Source: Clostridia bacterium
GTDB taxonomy: Bacteria > Bacillota > Clostridia > Oscillospirales > Acutalibacteraceae
Direction of reading: 5' to 3'
Assembly (NCBI GenBank): GCA_017517135.1
Contig: JAFXAK010000001.1
Location: 1-51,997 of the forward strand
Length of the DNA stretch: 51,997 nt
In this document: one piece after another, positions 35,109 to 45,102 of the stretch
How the letters are laid out: each line of letters opens with the position of its first letter
Position numbering within the stretch: the stretch's first letter is position 1
Notes under the pieces: model-generated
Databases searched by the model: none
The model's input: the letters and a program-made list of their open reading frames with translations, nothing else
Told to the model about the DNA's origin: nothing
Position numbers and translations under genes: made by a program

Positions 35109-36140
35109 TTATAAAAGCTCTGCGATATCGTAAATCAGCTTTTGGGTTTTCTCCCAGCCAAGACAGGGGTCTGTTATGGATTTGCCGTAAACCTCATCGG
35201 GGCCTATGGGCTGACAGCCGTCTTCAAGATAGCTTTCAATTATAAAGCCCTTGAACATTTTTGCAATGTCGGTATTGTGTCTGCAGGAGTGCAGAACCTC
35301 TTTGCAGATACGGGGCTGTTCTGCATACTTTTTACCGGAATTTGAGTGGTTTGCATCAACTATGACAGCAGGATTTTCAAGTCCTGATTTCATATATATT
35401 TCACAAAGCGAAGCAAGGTCCTCATAGTGGTAGTTGGGGAGGCTCTTGCCGTGCTTGTCAACATAGCCTCTGAGAATTGCGTGAGCTAAAGGATTGCCTG
35501 TTGTTGTTACATCCCAGCCTCTGTAAATAAACTGATGTGAGTGATGAGCCGCTGTGACGGCGTTCATCATTACCGAAAGGTCACCGCTTGTGGGGTTTTT
35601 CATACCTACGGGAACGGTGATACCGCTTGAAACAAGACGGTGCTCCTGATTTTCAACACTTCTCGCACCTACTGCAACATAAGACATAAGGTCAGATAAA
35701 TACCAATAGTTTGTGGGATAGAGCATTTCGTCTGCCGTTGAAAGTCCGAGCTCTGTCAGCACTCTGGTGTGCAGAGAACGGATTGCAACAATACCCTTGA
35801 AGGGATTGGGCTTATCGTTGGGATCGGGCTGATGAAGCATACCCTTATAGCCGTCACCCGTTGTGCGGGGCTTATTGGTGTATACGCGGGGAATTATGAT
35901 AAGCTTATCTGCAACATCGTCCTGAACTCTTCTGAGACGGGTGCAGTATTCAAAAACAGCATCCTCTCTGTCTGCCGAGCAGGGGCCTATGATGAGAAGC
36001 TTTTTGTCGCTATCGCCTTTGATAACTTCTGCAATATTTTTATCTGTCTGCTCTTTTATCTGAGTTGCGGCAAAAGATACGGGGTACATCTCCTTGACTT
36101 CAACGGGTAAGGGAAGCTTGCGGTTGAATTCCATAGCCAT
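35109..36140 (-). CDS. aroF: DAHP synthase, class I (3-deoxy-7-phosphoheptulonate synthase)
   Basis: Condenses erythrose 4-phosphate and phosphoenolpyruvate, the committed step of the shikimate pathway. Class I-alpha signature: IGPCSAD with a metal-ligand Cys near residue 53, PRVYTNKPRTTGDGYKG near 84, VGARSVENQEHR near 158, PVGMKNPTSGD near 176, VIVDANHSNSGK near 264 with the metal-ligand His, and DPCLGWE near 330. 343 aa, usual length. AAAGGAG precedes the ATG by nine bases. Feedback class (Phe-, Tyr- or Trp-sensitive) cannot be read safely; the gene symbol is therefore tentative. It is oddly near the end of the operon rather than first. Confidence 0.93.
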   Translation of the reverse strand: MAMEFNRKLPLPVEVKEMYPVSFAATQIKEQTDKNIAEVIKGDSDKKLLIIGPCSADREDAVFEYCTRLRRVQDDVADKLIIIPRVYTNKPRTTGDGYKGMLHQPDPNDKPNPFKGIVAIRSLHTRVLTELGLSTADEMLYPTNYWYLSDLMSYVAVGARSVENQEHRLVSSGITVPVGMKNPTSGDLSVMMNAVTAAHHSHQFIYRGWDVTTTGNPLAHAILRGYVDKHGKSLPNYHYEDLASLCEIYMKSGLENPAVIVDANHSNSGKKYAEQPRICKEVLHSCRHNTDIAKMFKGFIIESYLEDGCQPIGPDEVYGKSITDPCLGWEKTQKLIYDIAELL

Positions 36141-36169: not shown

Positions 36170-36595
36170 TTATGATAATTTATTTCTTAAATATTCAACG
36201 GCTTCCTTGTAACCGTCAAAGCCGTGACCTGCTATTGTTTTTTCCGCATAAAGTGACACGAAAGAGAATTTGCGGAAGTCCTCTCTTGAATTGATGTCAG
36301 AAATATGCACCTCTACTGTAGGAATATTTACTGCCTTTAATGCATCAAGAATTGCAACGCTTGTGTGGGTGTATGCGGCAGGATTTATAACAATTCCGTC
36401 TGTATCAAAGCGTGCTGCCTGAATCTTATCAACAATATCACCCTCGTGATTTGACTGATATAATTCGTAATCAACTCCGTCGAGAGCCTCTTTGAGTAAG
36501 TTGCAAAGGTCTTCATAAGTGCTTTTTCCGTATATCCCCGGCTCTCTTACCCCCAAAAGGTTGAGATTAGGGCCGTTTATTACAAGAATTTTCAT
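36170..36595 (-). CDS. aroQ: 3-dehydroquinate dehydratase, type II
   Basis: Dehydrates 3-dehydroquinate to 3-dehydroshikimate. Type II signature: ILVINGPNLNLLGVREPGIYG at the N-terminus (core NGPNLNLLG and the catalytic Tyr in IYG), QSNHEGDIVDKIQ near 50, INPAAYTHTSVAI near 74, and VEVHISDINSREDFR near 97. 141 aa, normal. Overlaps the aroEK stop by four bases. Confidence 0.96.
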   Translation of the reverse strand: MKILVINGPNLNLLGVREPGIYGKSTYEDLCNLLKEALDGVDYELYQSNHEGDIVDKIQAARFDTDGIVINPAAYTHTSVAILDALKAVNIPTVEVHISDINSREDFRKFSFVSLYAEKTIAGHGFDGYKEAVEYLRNKLS

Positions 36596-37830
36596 AGCTT
36601 TACCGCCTTTAATATATTTTCAACTGTTTTTTTAACATCCTTTTCGCAGTCTGCCTTCACATCGCAAAAGGAGAGGTACAAGGGAAGCCTTGTTTCATAC
36701 ATTTTTTCAAGATTTCCCTTTTGAGAAAGAGGTCTGCCGTCGGTTGAAAGCTCATTTATGTCTCTTTCGATAAAAACAATTCTGCCGTTTTCGTGCAAGG
36801 GAAGATAGTTTTCCTGTCTTGTTACAACACCGCCGCCCGTTGCAATAACAAGTCCCGAGCGTTTTGCTGTCTGCTTTACGGCTTCGTGTTCAATTTTTCT
36901 GAAATGCTCTTCACCGTACTGCGAGAAAATTTCGGGGATAGACATTCCCGCCATCTCTGCAATAAGCTCATCGGTGTCAACAAATTCTCTTCCGAGAACT
37001 TCTGCCAATTTTTTTCCCGCCGTGCTTTTACCGCTTGAGGGCATTCCTATAAGTACAATATTTTCACTCTGTTTCGCGATTTCCTGAGTGATACGCTTGT
37101 TTTCGCTGTCATCAATGGTACAGTCAAGAAAATATTCGCAAGCCTTTTTTGCCTGAGATACGAGCATCACAAGTCCGTTGATAAAGGGGATGCCGAGCCT
37201 TTCAGCCTGACAAAGAAGCGAGGTTCTTGCAGGATTATATATAAGGTCAAGCACTCCCGAAAGAGCCGGGAACATTTCAAGATTTACGGGGGACACACCG
37301 TTGTTCGGGTACATTCCCACGGGTGTTGTGTTTACTATTACATCCGCATCGCTGTGAAGAGTAATGTTGCTGTAATTCACTTCACCCGTTCTTGATACTG
37401 AAATAATCTCAGCGGCTTCAAGGTCCTGTAATACGGTTTTTACGGTAAGAGAAGCGCCTCCCGTGCCTAAAACAAGCACCTTTTTGTGTTTAACTGTAAC
37501 ACCTAAGCTTTTTATCATATGCATAAAGCCGTAATAATCGGTATTGTAGCCGAAAAGCTTACCGTCTTTTTTTACTATAGTGTTGACCGAGCCGATTTTC
37601 TGTGCTTCATCTGAAATGAAATCAAGAAAGGGCATAACGGTTTTTTTATAGGGTATTGTAACATTCATAGCATCAAGAGGACAGCTTTTAAGAAAAGCTC
37701 CAACCTCGTTTTCCGGCATTTCATATAGCTTATATTCGTAATCTGCTAAAAGGGCGTGTATCTGCGGAGAAAAGCTGTGTGAGAGATGCTCACCCAAGAG
37801 TCCGCATTTAAAATTATCGGTATGTATCAT
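36592..37830 (-). CDS. Shikimate dehydrogenase-shikimate kinase fusion (AroE-AroK)
   Basis: Bifunctional enzyme. Residues 1-250 are AroE: GLLGEHLSHSFSPQIH at 10-25 (substrate loop), MNVTIPYKKTV near 55 with the catalytic Lys, GSVNTIVKKDG, GYNTDYYGFM, and VLGTGGASLTV for NADP binding. Residues about 255-412 are AroK: VLIGMPSSGKSTAGKKLA with the P-loop, FVDTDELIAE, IATGGGVVTRQEN and RPLSQKGN. Both active sites look complete. The fusion lets two non-adjacent pathway steps' products (shikimate, shikimate 3-phosphate) be made by one chain. Nine bases after pheA. Confidence 0.94.
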   Translation of the reverse strand: MIHTDNFKCGLLGEHLSHSFSPQIHALLADYEYKLYEMPENEVGAFLKSCPLDAMNVTIPYKKTVMPFLDFISDEAQKIGSVNTIVKKDGKLFGYNTDYYGFMHMIKSLGVTVKHKKVLVLGTGGASLTVKTVLQDLEAAEIISVSRTGEVNYSNITLHSDADVIVNTTPVGMYPNNGVSPVNLEMFPALSGVLDLIYNPARTSLLCQAERLGIPFINGLVMLVSQAKKACEYFLDCTIDDSENKRITQEIAKQSENIVLIGMPSSGKSTAGKKLAEVLGREFVDTDELIAEMAGMSIPEIFSQYGEEHFRKIEHEAVKQTAKRSGLVIATGGGVVTRQENYLPLHENGRIVFIERDINELSTDGRPLSQKGNLEKMYETRLPLYLSFCDVKADCEKDVKKTVENILKAVKL

Positions 37831-37839
37831 AGCTTTACC

Positions 37840-38997
37840 TCAGGAAATAAATTCGGAGAAGCTGCCGAGATATCTGAAATCCTCGCATTGAGTTTCAAGC
37901 TCTGAGAGGAGATTCTGCAGTCTCGGAGAATATACGGGCGCTTCAAGATCGAAATAGAACATAAATTCAAAATCTCTGTCGGGCAAAGGACGCGATTCAA
38001 GCTTTGATAAATTTATTCCTTGTGAGAAACAATGCGAAAGCAGAGAATAAAGCGAGCCGGGACGGTTTTCGGTGATAGCCATAACCGTTGTTTTTTCGGC
38101 ACCCGGATAGATTTCAAGATTTTTTGAAATGCAGATGAAGCGTGTGTGGTTGTTATCCGTGTTCTGCACACCGTCAACGAGCTTCTGAAGACCGTAGAGG
38201 GATGCACAGTGTCTTGAGGATAGGGCGGCTAAGTCAATTCTGCCCGACTGTGCCACCATCTGAGCCGCAACGGCGGTGTTAGCACAGGGAGTTACCTTTA
38301 TATCGGGGTGAGCTTTAAGAAATTCGGAGCATTGGTTTATTGCCTGCTCGTGTGAGAAGATTTCTTTTATGTCTTCTGTTTTTGCTCCGGGAAGTGCCAA
38401 AAGATTGTGGTCAATTTTCAGTCTGTGGGAACGCACAATATAAAATTTGTGCTTTAAGATAAGGTCAAATATTTTTGTAACTGAGCCTGCGGTGCTGTTT
38501 TCTATAGGCAGAACACCGTACTGACATTCTCCGTTTTCTATAGCTTCAAAAACCGCATCAAAGGAACGGTAGTATTTTATATCGGGCAGAGAAAAAATCT
38601 TTTCTGCCGCAATCTGTGAATACGCACCCTCAACACCCTGACAGGCAACACTTGCCTTCTCGGGGAAAAGTCTGGGGGTATTTTCTATAGCTTCGTTTAT
38701 CTGAGAAATGAGTTCTTTGTTCTCGTTCATCAATTTGTGCTGATATGAACGCGAAAGTGACATAAGTGTTGAATAGAGAACTCTTGTGTAGCTCGAAAAT
38801 TCTTCACCCGCAAGGTCGGATACCTTAGTGAGAAGACTTCTTTCTCTTGCCGCATCAAGCACGGGAAGGCCTGCATTTTTTTTGTACTGTGCAACGCCTG
38901 ACGCAACCTTCATTCTCTTTTTGAAAAGCTCAACCAGTTCTCTGTCTATACTGTCTATTTCCTGTCTGAGTTCGTTGAGGGACAGCTCTTTATCCAT
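37840..38997 (-). CDS. pheA: Chorismate mutase/prephenate dehydratase (PheA)
   Basis: Bifunctional enzyme leading to phenylpyruvate. Residues about 4-92 are an AroQ-type chorismate mutase (LRQEIDSIDRELVELFKKRM, VAQYKKNAGLPVLDAARE by core). The prephenate dehydratase part covers about 118-290: CQGVEGAYSQIAAEKIF, GVLPIENSTAGSV and the catalytic NNHTRFICI. The ACT domain covers about 305-375, with GSLYSLLSHCFSQGIN and KLESRPLPDRDFEFMF; ESRP is the Phe-binding element, so feedback by Phe is likely. 385 aa, one base before aroC's stop region on the same strand. Confidence 0.95.
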   Translation of the reverse strand: MDKELSLNELRQEIDSIDRELVELFKKRMKVASGVAQYKKNAGLPVLDAARERSLLTKVSDLAGEEFSSYTRVLYSTLMSLSRSYQHKLMNENKELISQINEAIENTPRLFPEKASVACQGVEGAYSQIAAEKIFSLPDIKYYRSFDAVFEAIENGECQYGVLPIENSTAGSVTKIFDLILKHKFYIVRSHRLKIDHNLLALPGAKTEDIKEIFSHEQAINQCSEFLKAHPDIKVTPCANTAVAAQMVAQSGRIDLAALSSRHCASLYGLQKLVDGVQNTDNNHTRFICISKNLEIYPGAEKTTVMAITENRPGSLYSLLSHCFSQGINLSKLESRPLPDRDFEFMFYFDLEAPVYSPRLQNLLSELETQCEDFRYLGSFSEFIS

Positions 38998-38998
38998 C

Positions 38999-40090
38999 TT
39001 ATTCAGCCTCCTTTTTATCGAGCAGCATATCGATAAGTGCTATTGCTGCAGCCGCCTGAATTACGGGAACGGCTCTGGGTACTATACAGGGATCGTGTCT
39101 GCCCTTTATTGCCAGCCTTACATTTTTCTTTTCCTTTAAGGAAACGCTGTCCTGCTCCAAAGCTATTGAGGGAGTGGGCTTGAAGGCAGCGGTAAATATA
39201 AGGGGCATACCGTTTGTCATTCCCCCGAGAATGCCTCCGCAGTTGTTTGTTTTTGTTCTGACTGTGTCTTCGTCATAATAGAAAGCATCGTTGTTTTCTA
39301 TACCGGTCATCTGTGATGAGCTGAAGCCTGCACCGAATTCAACGCCCTTGACGGCAGGGATTGAAAAAACGATTGACGCAATTCTGCCCTCTGCGCCTGC
39401 AAATAAATGCTCACCTAAGCCTGCGGGAAGTCCCGTAACGGCACATTCAACCGTACCGCCCACGGAATTGCCCTCTTGCCGCATTTCTTCAATCAGCTGC
39501 TGCATTTTTGCCCTGTTTTCATCATTCAGTACGGGGAAACGGCTGTCATCAAGTAAAGAAAGCATTTCGGTATCAGGGTTTACCTTGTCAAACGGGGTAT
39601 CGTATATATTGCCTATTGAATTTATGTGGGCAAAAATCTCTATGCCTTTTTCTTTGAGGTACTGTCTGCAGAGTGCACCCGCAATGCACATCAGAGAGGT
39701 AAGTCTGCCCGAGAAATGTCCGCCGCCTCTGAGGTCTACCGTGTCGCCGTATTTCATAACAGCGGCAAAATCCGCGTGTGACGGACGGGGGATGTCCGTC
39801 ACCGAGCTGTAGTCGGATGAATGTTGATTTTGGTTATATATAACAGCGTGTATTCTTTCTCCCGTGGTAATACCGTCTTTTACGCCCGAAAGAAATACGG
39901 GCATATCCTTTTCCTTTCGCGGAGTTGACCATTTGTCATTACCGGGAGCGCGTCTTTGCATAAATTTCAGGAGTGCATCCTCGTCTATTTTCATTCCCTT
40001 GGGGAAGTTATCAAGAAGCATCTCTATTTTTTCATCGTGGGAGCCACCTTCAATGAACAGCTTTATGTTGTTGCCGTATGGAGCTAACAT
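38999..40090 (-). CDS. aroC: Chorismate synthase
   Basis: Makes chorismate from 5-enolpyruvylshikimate 3-phosphate with reduced FMN. Signature segments: RRAPGNDKWSTPRKEKD near 46-62, RPSHADFAAVMKYG near 103, RGGGHFSGRLTSLMCIAGALC near 121 (core GGGHFSGR), and GILGGMTNGMPL near 286. The N-terminal loop that usually reads FGESHG is EGGSHDEK here, keeping the His but not the flanking residues. 363 aa, normal. The start lies one base after the aroA stop. Confidence 0.93.
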   Translation of the reverse strand: MLAPYGNNIKLFIEGGSHDEKIEMLLDNFPKGMKIDEDALLKFMQRRAPGNDKWSTPRKEKDMPVFLSGVKDGITTGERIHAVIYNQNQHSSDYSSVTDIPRPSHADFAAVMKYGDTVDLRGGGHFSGRLTSLMCIAGALCRQYLKEKGIEIFAHINSIGNIYDTPFDKVNPDTEMLSLLDDSRFPVLNDENRAKMQQLIEEMRQEGNSVGGTVECAVTGLPAGLGEHLFAGAEGRIASIVFSIPAVKGVEFGAGFSSSQMTGIENNDAFYYDEDTVRTKTNNCGGILGGMTNGMPLIFTAAFKPTPSIALEQDSVSLKEKKNVRLAIKGRHDPCIVPRAVPVIQAAAAIALIDMLLDKKEAE

Positions 40091-40091
40091 T

Positions 40092-41339
40092 TCAGTTCCT
40101 CTTTTCGTCAGAGAGTTTATAAAAATCCTTCCAGAAATCGGGATAAGATTTTTTTACGGCTTCACTGCCGTTTATTGTTACTTTATTTTCACACAGCGTT
40201 GCCGCAACGGCACCGCTCATTGCAATTCTGTGGTCGTTGCCCGAGGAAAATTCACCGCCCGAAAGGGGACAACCCGTGATTTCCAGACCGTCGGGATTTA
40301 TTTTTACCTTTCCGCCGAGAGAAGTGAGCATATCGCAAACCGTCTGCAGTCTGTCACTTTCCTTTATTCTCAGCCTCTGTGCACCGTATATTTTTGTTGT
40401 ACCCTTTGCACTTGCGGCGGCAACGGAGAGTATCGGAACAAGGTCGGGAATCTGCGAAGCATCAATATCGGCAGCTTTAAGCTCACTCGGGAAAGCCGTG
40501 ACACTATTGCTTTCGCATATTACTTTTGCGCCGAGCTTTTTCAATTCATCAATGATTGCCTTGTCACCCTGCGCGGAGTTAAGTTCAAGTCCCGAAACGG
40601 TTATCGGCTTCTTGCCAACAACACCTGCCGTTATAAAGAATGCGGCATTTGACCAGTCACCCTTTGCGGTGATTTTTTCGGGAGAGTGCAGAGGATATGT
40701 TTTTGTTATTTTATATCCGTGTTCTGTTTTTTCAACGGGACAGCCAAAGCTTCTGAGTGCATTTACCGTCATATCAATATAAGGTGCACTTTCGGTCTTG
40801 CCCGTAATTTCAATTTCACCGCCCGAAACAGAGAGCATAAAAAGAAGTCCGCTTATAAACTGTGAAGATACATTTCCCGCTATTGAGAAGAAATGTCCTT
40901 TGATGTCTGCTTTTACAAAAAGGGAAGAGCCGTTCCGGCGGAATACGGCACCGTTTTCTTCGAGTAACTCTTTAAGAGGGGAGAGAGGTCTTTCACTCAG
41001 TCTGCCTCTCATCAGAAATTCGGCTTCAACCCCCAAAATACACACAACGGGTATCAGAAAACGCAGAGTGGAGCCGGATTCATTACAGGGAAGAAGCGCT
41101 TTTTTCGGCAAGGACTGTATCGGACTTACCTCAAAAAATCCGTTTTTATATGTAATTACAGCACCCAATGCACGAAGACAGTCTGCAGTTGCATTTATGT
41201 CTTCGTTTGTGTCCTTACACTCGATTACGGTTTTTTTGTCTGCTAAAGCCGCACAGATGAGAAGCCTGTGCACTTCGGATTTTGATGTTATCGCTCTCAC
41301 TTCACCCGAGAGAACGGGGGAGAAAAGTGTTTCAGTCAT
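40092..41339 (-). CDS. aroA: 5-enolpyruvylshikimate-3-phosphate synthase
   Basis: Adds enolpyruvate to shikimate 3-phosphate. Motifs: ITSKSEVHRLLICAALAD (substrate loop, usually GDKSISHR), NESGSTLRFLIPV near 88, VSSQFISGLLFML near 158, GDWSNAAFFI near 228, DASQIPDLVPILSVAAASA near 298, RIKESDRL near 330, and DHRIAMSGAVAA near 374. The longer frame begins at 41366, but the ATG at 41339 fits the family start and overlaps the aroB stop (ATGACTGA), with GGGAG upstream. About 415 aa. The last residues end before aroC with one base between. Confidence 0.94.
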   Translation of the reverse strand: MTETLFSPVLSGEVRAITSKSEVHRLLICAALADKKTVIECKDTNEDINATADCLRALGAVITYKNGFFEVSPIQSLPKKALLPCNESGSTLRFLIPVVCILGVEAEFLMRGRLSERPLSPLKELLEENGAVFRRNGSSLFVKADIKGHFFSIAGNVSSQFISGLLFMLSVSGGEIEITGKTESAPYIDMTVNALRSFGCPVEKTEHGYKITKTYPLHSPEKITAKGDWSNAAFFITAGVVGKKPITVSGLELNSAQGDKAIIDELKKLGAKVICESNSVTAFPSELKAADIDASQIPDLVPILSVAAASAKGTTKIYGAQRLRIKESDRLQTVCDMLTSLGGKVKINPDGLEITGCPLSGGEFSSGNDHRIAMSGAVAATLCENKVTINGSEAVKKSYPDFWKDFYKLSDEKRN

Positions 41340-42384
41340 TGTCCCACGCTCCCGAAACAAAGTCATAAAGGTTTTCTATGGGTGTCTTTTCAAGTATACA
41401 TTCTCCTGCTTTTGTTGGAATAACAAGAGTTATTGTGCCGCCTGCCCTTTTTTTATCGTGAAGTGCCGCCTTGCAAAGAGCCTCGGGAGTGATATCTGTT
41501 GAAAAGGGAAGAGCATTTTTTATAAGAAGCCTTGTGAGAATATCCAATGCATTTTTATCGCATTTTTCCGCCCTGATTGCCGCTTTTGTGATAAGCACCA
41601 TTCCCACAGCAACTGCTCTGCCGTGAGGAATTGTGTAGTCGGAATCAAGCTCAATGCCGTGTGCGAGAGTATGTCCGAAATTAAGAAGCTGTCTTACTCC
41701 CGTATCGCGTTCATCCTCGTTTACTATATCTCTTTTTGCCTTTACGCATATTTCAATAACAGCGGAAATGTCATAATCTGCTTCAAGAATATCTAAAAGC
41801 TGAGGCTGATTTATCATACCGTACTTTATGACCTCTGCCATACCGTCGCTGTAAATCTCCCGCGGTAATGTTTTCAGAGTTTCGGGATCGCATAAAACCA
41901 TAGACGGCTGATAGAATGTACCTGCAAGATTTTTGCCCGATTCAAGGTCAATGGCTGTTTTTCCGCCTACGGAGGAGTCCACCATAGCTAAAAGAGTTGT
42001 CGGAATCTGTATGTATTTTATACTGCGAAGATAGGTTGAAGCGGCAAAGCCCGAAAGATCACCCACAACACCTCCGCCCAAGGCTACTATCATATCCGAA
42101 CGGGTAAAATGAGCGTTTGCAAGAGCGTTCCATATTTTAATAAGATTATCTGCACATTTTGATGCTTCACCGGGTGTTATTATAAATTCACTCACCTCGA
42201 AGCCGTTGTCCGTGAGAGAGTTTTTTACCGTTTCACCGTAAAGAGCAAAAACCGTGCTGTCGGAAATTATCATAATTTTGCAGTTTTTTCTTATTGTGCT
42301 TATATATGCACCGCAAGCTGCAATAAGTCCGTTTTCTATGAGTATATCGTAGGTGGTTGATGCTTCAACTTTTACTGTTTTCAT
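41332..42384 (-). CDS. aroB: 3-dehydroquinate synthase
   Basis: NAD-dependent cyclisation of DAHP to 3-dehydroquinate. Motifs: GGGVVGDLSGFAASTYLRSI near 103-122 (core GGGVVGD), QIPTTLLAMVDSSVGGKTAID near 126, NLAGTFYQP, DGMAEVIKYG near 180 with metal-ligand Glu, RQLLNFGHTLAHGIE near 231, and IPHGRAVAVGM near 253. 350 aa, normal. Five bases separate it from tyrA; it overlaps aroA by eight bases. Confidence 0.96.
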   Translation of the reverse strand: MKTVKVEASTTYDILIENGLIAACGAYISTIRKNCKIMIISDSTVFALYGETVKNSLTDNGFEVSEFIITPGEASKCADNLIKIWNALANAHFTRSDMIVALGGGVVGDLSGFAASTYLRSIKYIQIPTTLLAMVDSSVGGKTAIDLESGKNLAGTFYQPSMVLCDPETLKTLPREIYSDGMAEVIKYGMINQPQLLDILEADYDISAVIEICVKAKRDIVNEDERDTGVRQLLNFGHTLAHGIELDSDYTIPHGRAVAVGMVLITKAAIRAEKCDKNALDILTRLLIKNALPFSTDITPEALCKAALHDKKRAGGTITLVIPTKAGECILEKTPIENLYDFVSGAWDND

Positions 42385-42389
42385 AATTT

Positions 42390-43223
42390 TTATTTCCCGT
42401 CTATTTCTTCTTTTGCAATTCTTCCGTCTCTGAGAAGTCTGCAGAGTGTTTTTTCGTCATTTTCTTCCAAAGCCTTTTTGTATTCATTAAGCGAGGCGGT
42501 TATAAGGTCAAGCTCATGAATCAGACAGTCGGCATTTTCCAAAAACAGCTCTGTCCACATATTTTCATTAAGCCATGCAACTCTTGTCATATCCTTGTAG
42601 GAGCCTGCCGAAAAGCCGTTGTGAGATTTTGCCGTTTCGCTTTTAATATAGGCATTTGATACAAGATGCGCCATCTGTGAAGTAAAAGCAATCATTTTGT
42701 CATGTTCTTCGGCTGTTGTTACGGAGAACATACCGAAACCGGCAGGGGCTAACAGCTTTTTTATATCGTTTATAAGCTCTTTATTGTCAAAAACGGGAGG
42801 AACAAGTACCATAGGTGCGCCCTTAAACATATCGGAACGGCTGTGCTGTATACCTGAAAAATGTGTGCCTGCCATAGGATGTCCGCCAATAAAGGTAAAG
42901 CCGTATTCTTCTGCCTTTCGGAATCCTTTTTCGCATACATTCCTTTTTGTTCCGCACAAATCTATTACTGTACAGTCTTTACCGAAAAACCGTGAATTTT
43001 CTTCAAGATAATTTATTGTGGCTTTCGGATACAGTGCAATGAAAAGAATATCCAATGTTTTCAGATGATGTGTCTGCAGTCTTGCATCTGCAATACCTGA
43101 AATCACTGCATAGTCGAGTGTTTCCTCGTTTTTGTCGTATGCATATACGGTATGTCCCTTTGTTTTATAGGCTCTTGCCATTGAGCCGCCTATAAGTCCT
43201 AAGCCGATAATGCCGATTTTCAT
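42390..43223 (-). CDS. tyrA: Prephenate dehydrogenase (TyrA)
   Basis: Oxidative decarboxylation of prephenate to 4-hydroxyphenylpyruvate for tyrosine. NAD-binding fold at the N-terminus (IGIIGLGLIGGSMARAYK), LCGTKRNVCEK near 89, FIGGHPMAGTHFSGIQHS near 111 with catalytic His, VTTAEEHDKMIAFTSQMAHLVS (core HDKMIAFTSQMAH) near 179. 277 aa, no ACT domain. First structural gene of the operon, with AGGGTG seven bases before its ATG and the attenuator directly upstream. Confidence 0.94.
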   Translation of the reverse strand: MKIGIIGLGLIGGSMARAYKTKGHTVYAYDKNEETLDYAVISGIADARLQTHHLKTLDILFIALYPKATINYLEENSRFFGKDCTVIDLCGTKRNVCEKGFRKAEEYGFTFIGGHPMAGTHFSGIQHSRSDMFKGAPMVLVPPVFDNKELINDIKKLLAPAGFGMFSVTTAEEHDKMIAFTSQMAHLVSNAYIKSETAKSHNGFSAGSYKDMTRVAWLNENMWTELFLENADCLIHELDLITASLNEYKKALEENDEKTLCRLLRDGRIAKEEIDGK

Positions 43224-43236
43224 AATTTATCACCCT

Positions 43237-43314
43237 GAATAAAAAAATATGTGCTGCGGTTTTCACTGCAACACACAAAATCAAATATCTCATTTTGCAA
43301 AACAGATGAAAACC
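43237..43314 (-). promoter_or_regulatory. Attenuator terminator/antiterminator of the aromatic operon
   Basis: Minus strand. Terminator: TGTGTTGC (43268-43275) with GCAGCACA (43250-43257), one G-U, then a TATTTTTTT tract (43241-43249). Antiterminator: GGTTTTCATCTG (43303-43314), just after the leader stop codon, pairs with CAGTGAAAACC (43258-43268) as 8+3 bp with one bulged T; this uses the terminator loop and the end of its left arm, so the two cannot coexist. A third pairing, CTTTTACTT (43335-43343) with AAGTAAAGG (43313-43321), joins the Tyr/Phe codons to the stop region. The geometry is that of ribosome-mediated attenuation. Confidence 0.8.
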
Positions 43315-43315
43315 T

Positions 43316-43384
43316 TTACTTGTTTTTTTGCATAAAGTAAAAGCTAAAGTAAAAGTATTCAGCTGCGAAAGATACATTTTTCAT
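43316..43384 (-). CDS. Leader peptide rich in Phe and Tyr, controls the aromatic operon
   Basis: A 22-codon frame with AGGAGA seven bases before its ATG and about 25 bases after the predicted transcription start. It encodes MKNVSFAAE, then YFYFSFYF (residues 10-17), then MQKNK. Eight of 22 residues are Phe or Tyr and seven fall in a row of eight codons. It lies between the promoter and the terminator of an operon whose products are Phe and Tyr. By analogy with pheA/his-type leaders, stalling at these codons when Phe or Tyr tRNA is scarce would free the segment after the stop codon to form the antiterminator. The coding frame is certain from sequence; the regulatory role is inference. Confidence 0.85.
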   Translation of the reverse strand: MKNVSFAAEYFYFSFYFMQKNK

Positions 43385-43408
43385 AGTTAATTCTCCTGAT
43401 TGCAAATA

Positions 43409-43437
43409 AGTATAGCACGGTGAAATTTAATAATCAA
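43409..43437 (-). promoter_or_regulatory. Promoter of the aromatic operon
   Basis: Minus strand: TTGATT (43432-43437), 17 bases, TATACT (43409-43414). The start of transcription would be near 43402, giving a leader of about 180 bases before tyrA. Confidence 0.65.
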
Positions 43438-43536
43438 TATTTTTGTTGGATTTTATTATTAAAATTATTTAATATAATAGATTAATTTTTTTGTTAATTG
43501 AATTCTTATGATTTCTTTAAGACTTTCTGAAGATAC

Positions 43537-43565
43537 TTGTCGGTATTTTTTTCTCTTGTTATAAT
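43537..43565 (+). promoter_or_regulatory. Promoter of the PstS-like gene
   Basis: TTGTCG (43537-43542), 17 bases, a perfect TATAAT (43560-43565); the coding start follows 31 bases later after an AGGAG site. The stretch 43438-43536 shows nothing but A/T-rich sequence. Confidence 0.6.
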
Positions 43566-43596
43566 GAATTCAGAATAAAAAATCAGGAGTGCTTTT

Positions 43597-45102
43597 ATGA
43601 ACAAAAAAAATCTGTCTGTGTCCAAAACGGTGCTTATATGCATATGTATGACGCTTTTGTATTGTTTTTCTGTTGTGTGCTTTTCCTTTTTAGCCGATGG
43701 CGGTGTTGAAATAGGCCCTCTTGCTTTTTCATTTGATGTTCCCGAGCTTTTATGCTTTGTGCCTTTCTTCTTTCCTGTTATTGCGGATGTTATTCTGAGA
43801 ATAAAAACAGATATAAAGCCATACGCTACACTTATATCTGCCTTTGCCGCAGTTGTAATATGGTTTGCTTTTTATGTAATTTATCCGCACTCGGACAGAC
43901 CTATGCAAGCAGGAGAAAACTATGCATTTGTTATGATGGCTCTGATATGCTTTGCCGTCAGATGTGTGTACAGTATTGCAGATATAATTCTCCTTAAAAG
44001 ATATAAGCAAATAATTGCGGCTGTTATTGTTGCGGTTATCGGTATATCCTCACTTGTCGGTGGCTTTGTTTTTGAGAAGGATATTTACCGACTTGTTATT
44101 GAGCCTAATATCGGAACAGCTGATAAAACAGGCTCGTGGGGTTCAATCAATCAGAATGTTGTCCGTCCCGAAAACTGGGAACAGATAGTTACCGATTCAC
44201 CGTACAAGCTCGGAGAAATAGTATCCGTATTTGAAGACGGGTACACAAATAACTATTGCGATATGGGTACATACCCTTATATTGACGGTTCAACAGTCTG
44301 TGTTCCTATGGCGGTTGAGTTTGCAAGACAGCATTTAGGCTTTGAAGATAAAACAGCCAATCTGTTCGTACAGTTTTCCACTACTCATTATGCATATGAA
44401 AATCTTATGGATGAAAATGCAACATGTCAGAATTATGTGCATTACAAATTAGATGCTTTTATAAATATGGGAAATGTTGATCTTGTTATTGCAACCGAGC
44501 CCTCAGAGGAAGAACTCAGACAGGCACAGAGCCTCGGAATCAAGCTTGTTAAAAAGCCTGTTTGCTATGATGCCTTCGTTTTTATTACACATAAGGACAA
44601 TCCCGTTGACAGCCTTACGGTAGAGCAGATACAAAAGATATACACAGGAGAAATAAAAAACTGGAAAGAAGTCGGCGGTAAAAATGAGCCGATAAGAGCA
44701 TTTCAGCGTGAGAAAAATTCAGGCTCCCAGACTGCAATGGAAAATCTTGTTATGGGCGGCAGCGATATGATAGATCCTATTGAAATAAAAATTATAGAAG
44801 GTATGGGAATGTTGGTTGATGCTGTTGCAGAATATGAAAACAAAACTGCAAGTATCGGCTACACATACAGATATTATATTGATACTCTTTATAAAAACGA
44901 TAACATTAAAACCATTTTCGTAAACGGTGTTTCTCCGACGGATGAAAATATAAGAAACGGCAGTTATCCGTTTACCACTAACTATTACGGTGTTATAAAA
45001 GAGGGGGATGAAGAAGAAACAGGCGGAAAATTTCTTGAATGGATACTCTCCGATGAAGGACAGCAATGTGTCAGACAGGCAGGATATATAACATTGAAAT
45101 AA
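43597..45102 (+). CDS. PstS-like phosphate-binding domain on a five-helix membrane anchor
   Basis: Residues 1-160 hold about five membrane helices (near 9-31, 48-66, 73-96, 107-132, 138-158). Residues about 200-501 form a type-2 periplasmic-binding domain of the PstS kind: MGTYPYIDGSTVCVPMAVEFAR near 223, PVCYDAFVFITHKDNPVDSL near 325, and YTGEIKNWKEVGGKNEPIRAF (core YTGEIKNWKEVGG) followed by EKNSGSQTAMENL near 370. The binding loops resemble those for phosphate. A lipoprotein anchor is the norm; a polytopic anchor is unusual. No pstCAB genes follow, so it may be a sensor or a stand-alone capture protein. Monocistronic. Confidence 0.82.
   Translation: MNKKNLSVSKTVLICICMTLLYCFSVVCFSFLADGGVEIGPLAFSFDVPELLCFVPFFFPVIADVILRIKTDIKPYATLISAFAAVVIWFAFYVIYPHSDRPMQAGENYAFVMMALICFAVRCVYSIADIILLKRYKQIIAAVIVAVIGISSLVGGFVFEKDIYRLVIEPNIGTADKTGSWGSINQNVVRPENWEQIVTDSPYKLGEIVSVFEDGYTNNYCDMGTYPYIDGSTVCVPMAVEFARQHLGFEDKTANLFVQFSTTHYAYENLMDENATCQNYVHYKLDAFINMGNVDLVIATEPSEEELRQAQSLGIKLVKKPVCYDAFVFITHKDNPVDSLTVEQIQKIYTGEIKNWKEVGGKNEPIRAFQREKNSGSQTAMENLVMGGSDMIDPIEIKIIEGMGMLVDAVAEYENKTASIGYTYRYYIDTLYKNDNIKTIFVNGVSPTDENIRNGSYPFTTNYYGVIKEGDEEETGGKFLEWILSDEGQQCVRQAGYITLK

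Follow-up and report, generated by a model that had tools for sequence, protein, structure and literature searches.

Does a ribosome translating a short frame of Phe and Tyr codons control transcription of a Phe/Tyr operon in a clostridial genome? This question is raised by a locus in the window, by which we mean the whole analysed stretch of 51,997 nucleotides from a Clostridia bacterium (contig JAFXAK010000001.1). The original prediction had placed a Phe/Tyr leader peptide with a complete attenuator there. The leader frame is located on the minus strand, 92 nt upstream of tyrA, and heads a tyrA-aroB-aroA-aroC-pheA-aroE/K-aroQ-aroF operon. The eight genes from tyrA to the DAHP synthase gene lie on one strand with tight spacing. 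Their names are taken from HMM matches, some of which score below the curated cut-offs:

42390 to 43223, minus strand: tyrA, prephenate dehydrogenase, first gene (NCBIfam below cut-offs; Pfam PDH_N and PDH_C above)
41332 to 42384, minus strand: aroB, 3-dehydroquinate synthase (above curated cut-off)
40092 to 41366, minus strand: aroA, 3-phosphoshikimate 1-carboxyvinyltransferase (above curated cut-off)
38999 to 40090, minus strand: aroC, chorismate synthase (above curated cut-off)
37840 to 38997, minus strand: pheA, chorismate mutase / prephenate dehydratase (mutase just above, dehydratase just below cut-off)
36592 to 37830, minus strand: aroE-aroK fusion, shikimate dehydrogenase and shikimate kinase in one protein (below curated cut-offs)
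36170 to 36595, minus strand: aroQ, type II 3-dehydroquinate dehydratase (three subfamily models above, TIGR01088 just below cut-off)
35109 to 36140, minus strand: aroF/G/H-type DAHP synthase, end of the operon (above curated cut-off)

The control codons of the leader fit the products of this operon, since it holds both tyrA and pheA. The leader region is flanked by the start of tyrA at 43223 and by a divergent gene beginning at 43597. Read by eye, the translation of the divergent gene (43597-45102, plus strand) looks like membrane segments and, after them, a domain similar to phosphate-binding proteins. The promoter, the AGGAGA motif, the 22-codon frame with YFYFSFYF and the stop codon had all been named beforehand; each was located by coordinates on the minus strand, and the three competing pairings that had been proposed are likewise all present in the window. 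The parts of the leader are as follows:

43437 to 43432, minus strand: -35 element TTGATT (sequence reading, promoter scoring)
43414 to 43409, minus strand: -10 element TATACT, TG-extended, 17 nt spacer from the -35 element (sequence reading, promoter scoring)
43409 to 43437, minus strand: sigma-70-type promoter TTGATT-17-TATACT (promoter scoring across leader loci)
43392 to 43397, minus strand: Shine-Dalgarno motif AGGAGA of the leader frame (sequence reading)
43316 to 43384, minus strand: leader frame MKNVSFAAEYFYFSFYFMQKNK, 22 codons, ATG at 43384, TAA at 43318-43316 (sequence reading, relatives)
43334 to 43357, minus strand: control codons TAC TTT TAC TTT AGC TTT TAC TTT (codon reading)
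43347 to 43366, minus strand: segment 1, GCAGCTGAATACTTTTACTT, within the frame, partner of segment 2 (folding, co-evolution test)
43303 to 43321, minus strand: segment 2, AAGTAAAGGTTTTCATCTG, across and past the stop codon (folding, co-evolution test)
43314 to 43303, minus strand: antiterminator 5' arm, GGTTTTCATCTG, part of segment 2, starting at the second base after the stop codon
43258 to 43268, minus strand: segment 3, CAGTGAAAACC, terminator 5' arm and loop, partner of segment 2 (folding, co-evolution test)
43248 to 43277, minus strand: predicted intrinsic terminator hairpin (3:4), -15.3 kcal/mol (folding, covariation)
43241 to 43247, minus strand: U tract of seven U, predicted termination point (sequence reading)

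The leader frame encodes five Phe and three Tyr, with YFYFSFYF as its densest run. Pairing 1:2 joins 43366-43347 with 43321-43303, pairing 2:3 joins 43314-43303 with 43268-43258, and pairing 3:4 is the terminator. The three pairings are mutually exclusive and the series ends in a hairpin with a U tract. Segment 1 resembles segment 3; the Phe-Ala-Ala stretch common to several of the peptides may therefore have a reason at the RNA level.

As a control for chance, the window was compared with shuffled sequence. A Phe/Tyr density with ATG and Shine-Dalgarno motif as in the window was reached by 1 of 3000 dinucleotide shuffles of the upstream region. A simple scanner returned two promoter matches over both strands of 43000-43700, one of them the promoter described here; shuffled sequence yields 3.7 matches. 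Over the same interval, this simple promoter/terminator scanner did not list the terminator. When the window leader was folded alone, the z value was -1.93 and 10 of 200 shuffles folded equally well, which is too weak as proof. Across the 29 non-redundant leader loci (window included), a promoter score of at least 11 was obtained at 20, versus 1.4% of single-base shuffles.

Relatives were fetched via TyrA from 27 genomes of the genus and 80 contigs. A close TyrA is present in nine genomes of the genus, window included; the leader was found in eight, and one ends at a contig edge. Duplicates (L001 of the window, L032 of L006), loci at contig ends (L005/L029, L030, L038) and L011-L027, a distant TyrA in 15 genomes with another operon order, were left out before counting. 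A short frame dense in Phe and Tyr codons was then found upstream of aroF or tyrA at 73 of 84 readable operon heads, window included. The densest ten residues contain five Phe or Tyr (F/Y) in L036 and at least six in the other 72 leaders. L082, where the leader frame precedes an extra upstream gene, was counted outside the 73. A strict rule, which demands ATG, a Shine-Dalgarno match and at least six F/Y in ten residues, selected 52 of the 84 loci at a shuffle expectation of 0.07. No such frame was seen at 10 of the 84 heads (L039, L050, L087, L088, L091, L095, L097, L104, L106 and L107). Judged by eye, seven of these have nothing dense; L050, L087 and L091 show five, six and five F/Y in ten residues, all without a Shine-Dalgarno match, and L087 with a TTG start.

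By label, 16 of the 73 leaders belong to Bacteroidota and one to Dehalococcoidales; the others are from Clostridia or other Bacillota. The leader sequences diverge strongly (MKHTSFATAYFFYFYFNDKK, MNRFFANNYFYLYFYYFCGNN, MKKDYYTYAYNYYYYFAK, MKTVNAYFYYFWFTRQYAG), yet the aromatic run is kept. The expectation of a conserved aromatic-codon frame thus held on the whole. Because the leader is conserved in relatives, a chance origin is untenable, and we regard the leader with all its parts as confirmed. At three loci with an F/Y leader (L008, L009 and L010), TyrA is a fusion of an N-terminal DAHP-synthase ferredoxin-like domain (PF18152) with prephenate dehydrogenase (L008 1249-2322, plus strand; the Pfam scan covered L008). 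The fusion looks as if an upstream aroF had lost its catalytic part and left the regulatory domain on TyrA.

The RNA pairings were analysed across the same loci. A terminator of -12 kcal/mol or better was predicted at all 73 leader loci and in 63 of 438 shuffled regions, with a permissive finder applied alike to both; at -16 kcal/mol or better the numbers were 68 of 73 and 9 of 438. First-gene starts are alignment estimates, and hence some terminators seem to extend a few bases into the gene. In ten related sequences, 8 of 10 terminator pairs had changed on both sides (22 cells), a result reached by 0 of 500 shuffles. Covariation of 2:3 in this ten-sequence alignment was not above shuffles, with 81 of 500 reaching the paired percentage; the helix is nearly invariant there, and the comparison is therefore uninformative.

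We then compared own with foreign partners in the 29 non-redundant leaders. Own partners gave -16.65 kcal/mol for 2:3 versus -12.02 for foreign ones, and -23.80 versus -17.74 for 1:2, and in both cases 0 of 20,000 permutations reached the mean of the own partners. The own partner ranked first in 5 of 29 rows for 2:3 and in 7 of 29 for 1:2, where one is expected, and was among the best three in 12 rows for 2:3 and in 15 for 1:2. Taken locus by locus, p≤0.05 was obtained for 2:3 at 54 and for 1:2 at 52 of the 73 loci; the other loci do not reach this level, and loci that are related cannot be counted as independent. Computation thus shows that the 1:2 and 2:3 pairings co-evolve across distant leaders. 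Of the covarying stems that had been anticipated, the terminator was found directly, and 2:3 failed in the close alignment, where it is invariant, but emerged in the own-versus-foreign comparison over distant leaders.

Next to the pairings, the position of the codons was evaluated. The distance from the last F/Y codon to the start of segment 2 falls within 13-22 nt in 26 of the 29 leaders and in 19.7% of shuffles, an interval that was itself derived from 21 of those 29 leaders. In the window, 19 nt separate the last Phe codon from segment 2. In all 21 non-redundant leaders whose 2:3 pairing reaches p≤0.05, the stop codon is found within segment 2, downstream of it, or upstream by no more than 11 nt. 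The argument from spacing uses the size of the ribosome footprint. Given this spacing and the stop position, segment 2 would be free when a ribosome has stalled and would be covered or melted by a ribosome that finishes the frame. Both Phe and Tyr codons occur in 28 of the 29 leaders; L066 is the exception with Tyr only. The F/Y fraction was 0.74 in frame and fell to 0.19 and 0.12 when the two other frames were read, although the in-frame value is inflated because the F/Y run was selected in frame. Codon use over the 29 leaders was mixed (TTT 98, TTC 18, TAC 73, TAT 64).

We consider it very probable that the locus is a ribosome-mediated transcription attenuator which senses charged tRNA-Phe and tRNA-Tyr together. 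Its parts, their conservation, the co-evolution of 1:2 and 2:3 and the spacing were established by computation, and they suggest that the frame is translated and that ribosomes stall in it in response to Phe and Tyr. The features of an attenuator are there: a ribosome binding site followed by a short, putatively translated frame, in the window and at 52 of 84 loci; a predicted terminator; an exclusive antiterminator and 1:2 hairpin; and a spacing compatible with the ribosome. RNA polymerase would start just upstream, with a ribosome trailing on the leader frame. With an ample supply of Phe and Tyr, the ribosome would get to the stop codon and cover the adjoining segment 2, leaving segment 3 free for the terminator, and transcription would end at about 43241. 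When either tRNA is uncharged, the ribosome would stall in the Phe/Tyr run and block the pairing of segment 1. Segment 3 could then pair with the exposed segment 2, so that the terminator would not form and the operon would be transcribed. With no ribosome on the frame, the long 1:2 hairpin would form and lead to termination.

The same terminator and antiterminator anatomy would also be seen if an RNA-binding protein or a small-molecule riboswitch operated the switch and the frame were incidental. We hold this to be improbable, as the F/Y frame is retained though peptides and RNA diverge, the distance from the F/Y codons to segment 2 is narrow and the position of the stop codon follows that of segment 2; furthermore, the 17 heads scanned are without a known Rfam riboswitch. 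An even smaller chance is given to the frame being simply a by-product of the RNA hairpin, with segment 1 rich in UUU and UAC in order to pair with AAGUAAAGG. The F/Y codons do overlap segment 1, and the choice of UAC and UUU near the 3' end suits the pairing, but codon use over the 29 leaders is mixed and F/Y codons are kept where segment 2 differs. Moreover, the frame comes with a promoter and, outside Bacteroidales, usually with a Shine-Dalgarno match, which makes this reading hardly credible.

Sequence-specific arrest by the nascent peptide, as in TnaC, where the exit tunnel would be the site at which free Phe or Tyr is sensed, would account for the FAA or FATA stretch that several leaders share before the F/Y run, and for the common FYFSAGY or FYFSFGY of a second leader type (see below). 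By inspection, however, the peptides of the 29 non-redundant leaders differ widely outside the F/Y run, and no conserved arrest peptide was found in them apart from this run. The FAA stretch is explicable by the pairing of segment 1 with segment 2, and arrest of this kind would mean inverted logic for a biosynthetic operon. We regard it as very improbable.

Other known RNA leaders were also considered for this operon. The T-box (RF00230) resembles the attenuator proposed here in sensing tRNA charging, but does so by direct binding of tRNA and without a ribosome. No T-box match was obtained in the window or at 16 further leader loci. Likewise, no known Rfam leader reached the gathering score in the window, where only two tRNAs were matched, or at the 16 further loci. 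The genome itself does contain T-boxes, with nine matches at E≤0.001 and six above the cut-off. By HMM, the genes after these six include pheS, tyrS, asnS and threonine ammonia-lyase; from translations read by eye, leuS and ileS also follow T-boxes, and thrS and alaS follow two sub-threshold matches. The contrast with T-box control drawn in the original prediction thus holds at this operon but not for the genome, where T-boxes lie upstream of genes such as pheS and tyrS. At L108 and L109 of this same genome, where T-boxes precede pheS and tyrS, a second kind of RNA leader serves Phe/Tyr genes.

T-boxes were also found at loci where the frame is missing. Scans of nine of the ten leaderless tyrA-linked loci gave a T-box within the locus in four, just downstream of tyrA in L091 and L107 and further off in L087 and L097. 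Among aroF loci of the class that fail the strict rule, 20 were scanned; L126, L136, L141 and L155 have a T-box directly upstream of aroF.

To describe the breadth of these leaders, we turned to the class as a whole. Among 245 genomes of the class, 208 have a match to the DAHP synthase family TIGR01361, in 177 of them above the cut-off. We sampled 90 aroF loci (L205 repeats L047), mostly the top-scoring among the 208 matching genomes. A strict F/Y frame was found at 32 of the 89 loci with enough upstream sequence, against an expectation of 0.12 in one scan and 0.05 in a corrected one; given how the loci were chosen, this is not an unbiased prevalence. A terminator of -12 kcal/mol or better follows at 31 of these 32 leaders, the pairing and spacing analyses having been confined to the tyrA-linked set. 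Many of the class aroF leaders represent a second type with FYFSAGYF or FYFSFGYF. This type lies upstream of aroF and has a longer frame followed by a predicted terminator, with a Trp codon in some; examples are L119, L124, L132, L172 and L186 (FSAGY) and L157, L163, L178 and L183 (FSFGY), among others.

A third leader type occurs in another lineage of the same genus at pheA-first operons, as in MFTGTYNGFYFYYFNKAMEHYIITDFSC (L243). Loci were read in 14 of the 15 genomes with a distant TyrA. Among the nine with a readable head, three show a clear F/Y frame, two a weak one (one of these by eye) and four none. RNA family scans of 11 of the 14 loci returned only tRNAs. The third-type leaders, all upstream of pheA-first operons, are:

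L243, 5132 to 5218, plus strand: third-type leader
L244, 7440 to 7526, minus strand: third-type leader
L242, 7320 to 7379, minus strand: third-type leader

L243 and L244 have AMEHYIITD in common after the F/Y run.

All 16 Bacteroidota leaders precede a clostridial-like aroF-tyrA and are without a Shine-Dalgarno match; they were kept in the 73 although the strict rule does not select them. In 12 of the 16 copies (L056, L072-L077, L083, L084, L094, L098, L101), the frame includes one Trp codon (AYFYYFWFT or AYYFYFWFT), as if all three aromatic amino acids were sensed. In the order of the L072 genome, TIGR01361 matches above the cut-off in 14 of 98 genomes. Besides L072, an F/Y frame with at least six in ten residues was found at 0 of 28 Bacteroidales aroF loci with enough upstream sequence; L208, the sole leader among aroF loci of that order, is the L072 locus again. 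No leader was seen at L210, which has a clostridial-like aroF, no tyrA nearby and a short upstream sequence. The simplest reading of these sequences is that operon and leader probably moved jointly into Bacteroidales. Alternatively, the Bacteroidota copies may be mis-binned contigs in draft genomes.

The classical attenuators of Proteobacteria are the trp, phe, his, thr, leu and ilv leader peptides. With these, the leader described here has in common the control codons for the operon products, the 1:2, 2:3 and 3:4 pairings, the terminator and a stop codon beside segment 2. It differs from them in its occurrence in Clostridia, in the mixed Phe and Tyr codons within one run, in having no Rfam match and in heading a combined Phe and Tyr operon with genes of the common pathway.

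The closest precedents are candidates. The legend of Fig. 6b in Stav et al. 2019 (PMC6429828) describes a pair of uORF candidates that contain F and Y and are associated with shikimate genes. Like the present leader, these are short F/Y frames at shikimate genes with a proposed regulatory role; they come from five other genomes, and the likeness is one of description. In PMC8632094 (2021), uORFC-13-1 is presented as a Phe-coding uORF candidate upstream of aroF in Acholeplasma, and aroF attenuation in E. coli is mentioned there as an earlier hypothesis. It resembles our leader in placing a uORF and a terminator before aroF with a model based on ribosome speed. It differs, as described there, in a U run that codes for at least one Phe and in its 24 sequences, from Acholeplasma and environmental sources only. 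Ribosome-type leaders in Firmicutes are further known from a Leu-rich attenuator peptide in Staphylococcus aureus (PMC5794164) and from the His leaders of Bacillus hisZ/hisS (PMC2965389); according to these sources, both concern other amino acids and operons. To the knowledge of the authors of PMC2965389, no leader-peptide system had been described outside Proteobacteria and Actinobacteria before their His leaders in Firmicutes. A table in PMC2864571 lists a Leu/phe leader in Lactococcus lactis and Bacteroid-trp, and PMC3766115 states that attenuator motifs may stem from gamma-proteobacteria with very few transfers.

Because the candidates of PMC6429828 and PMC8632094 precede it, a Phe/Tyr uORF leader is not wholly undescribed. 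The suggestion of a perhaps undescribed case thus goes too far. Against the open-licence literature, we count as new the breadth in Clostridia, the co-evolving pairings, the mixed Phe/Tyr control, the probable spread to Bacteroidales and the two further leader types. On balance, we lean towards a class-wide attenuator family of Clostridia that is not yet registered, in which one leader would work like an OR gate and respond when either Phe or Tyr runs short. Such a family would be a common alternative to the T-box and would have travelled with aroF-tyrA into gut Bacteroidales.

Papers have set the T-boxes of Gram-positive bacteria against the leader peptides of Gram-negative bacteria. Here, one clostridial genome has T-boxes at the genes for Phe and Tyr tRNA synthetases and an apparently translated leader at the biosynthetic operon, and aroF loci of the class bear either an F/Y leader or a T-box. 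Since both kinds are present in one genome and one or the other at aroF, the evolution of interchangeable sensors of tRNA charging becomes directly testable. The leader would also provide a natural sensor for two amino acids from gut bacteria.
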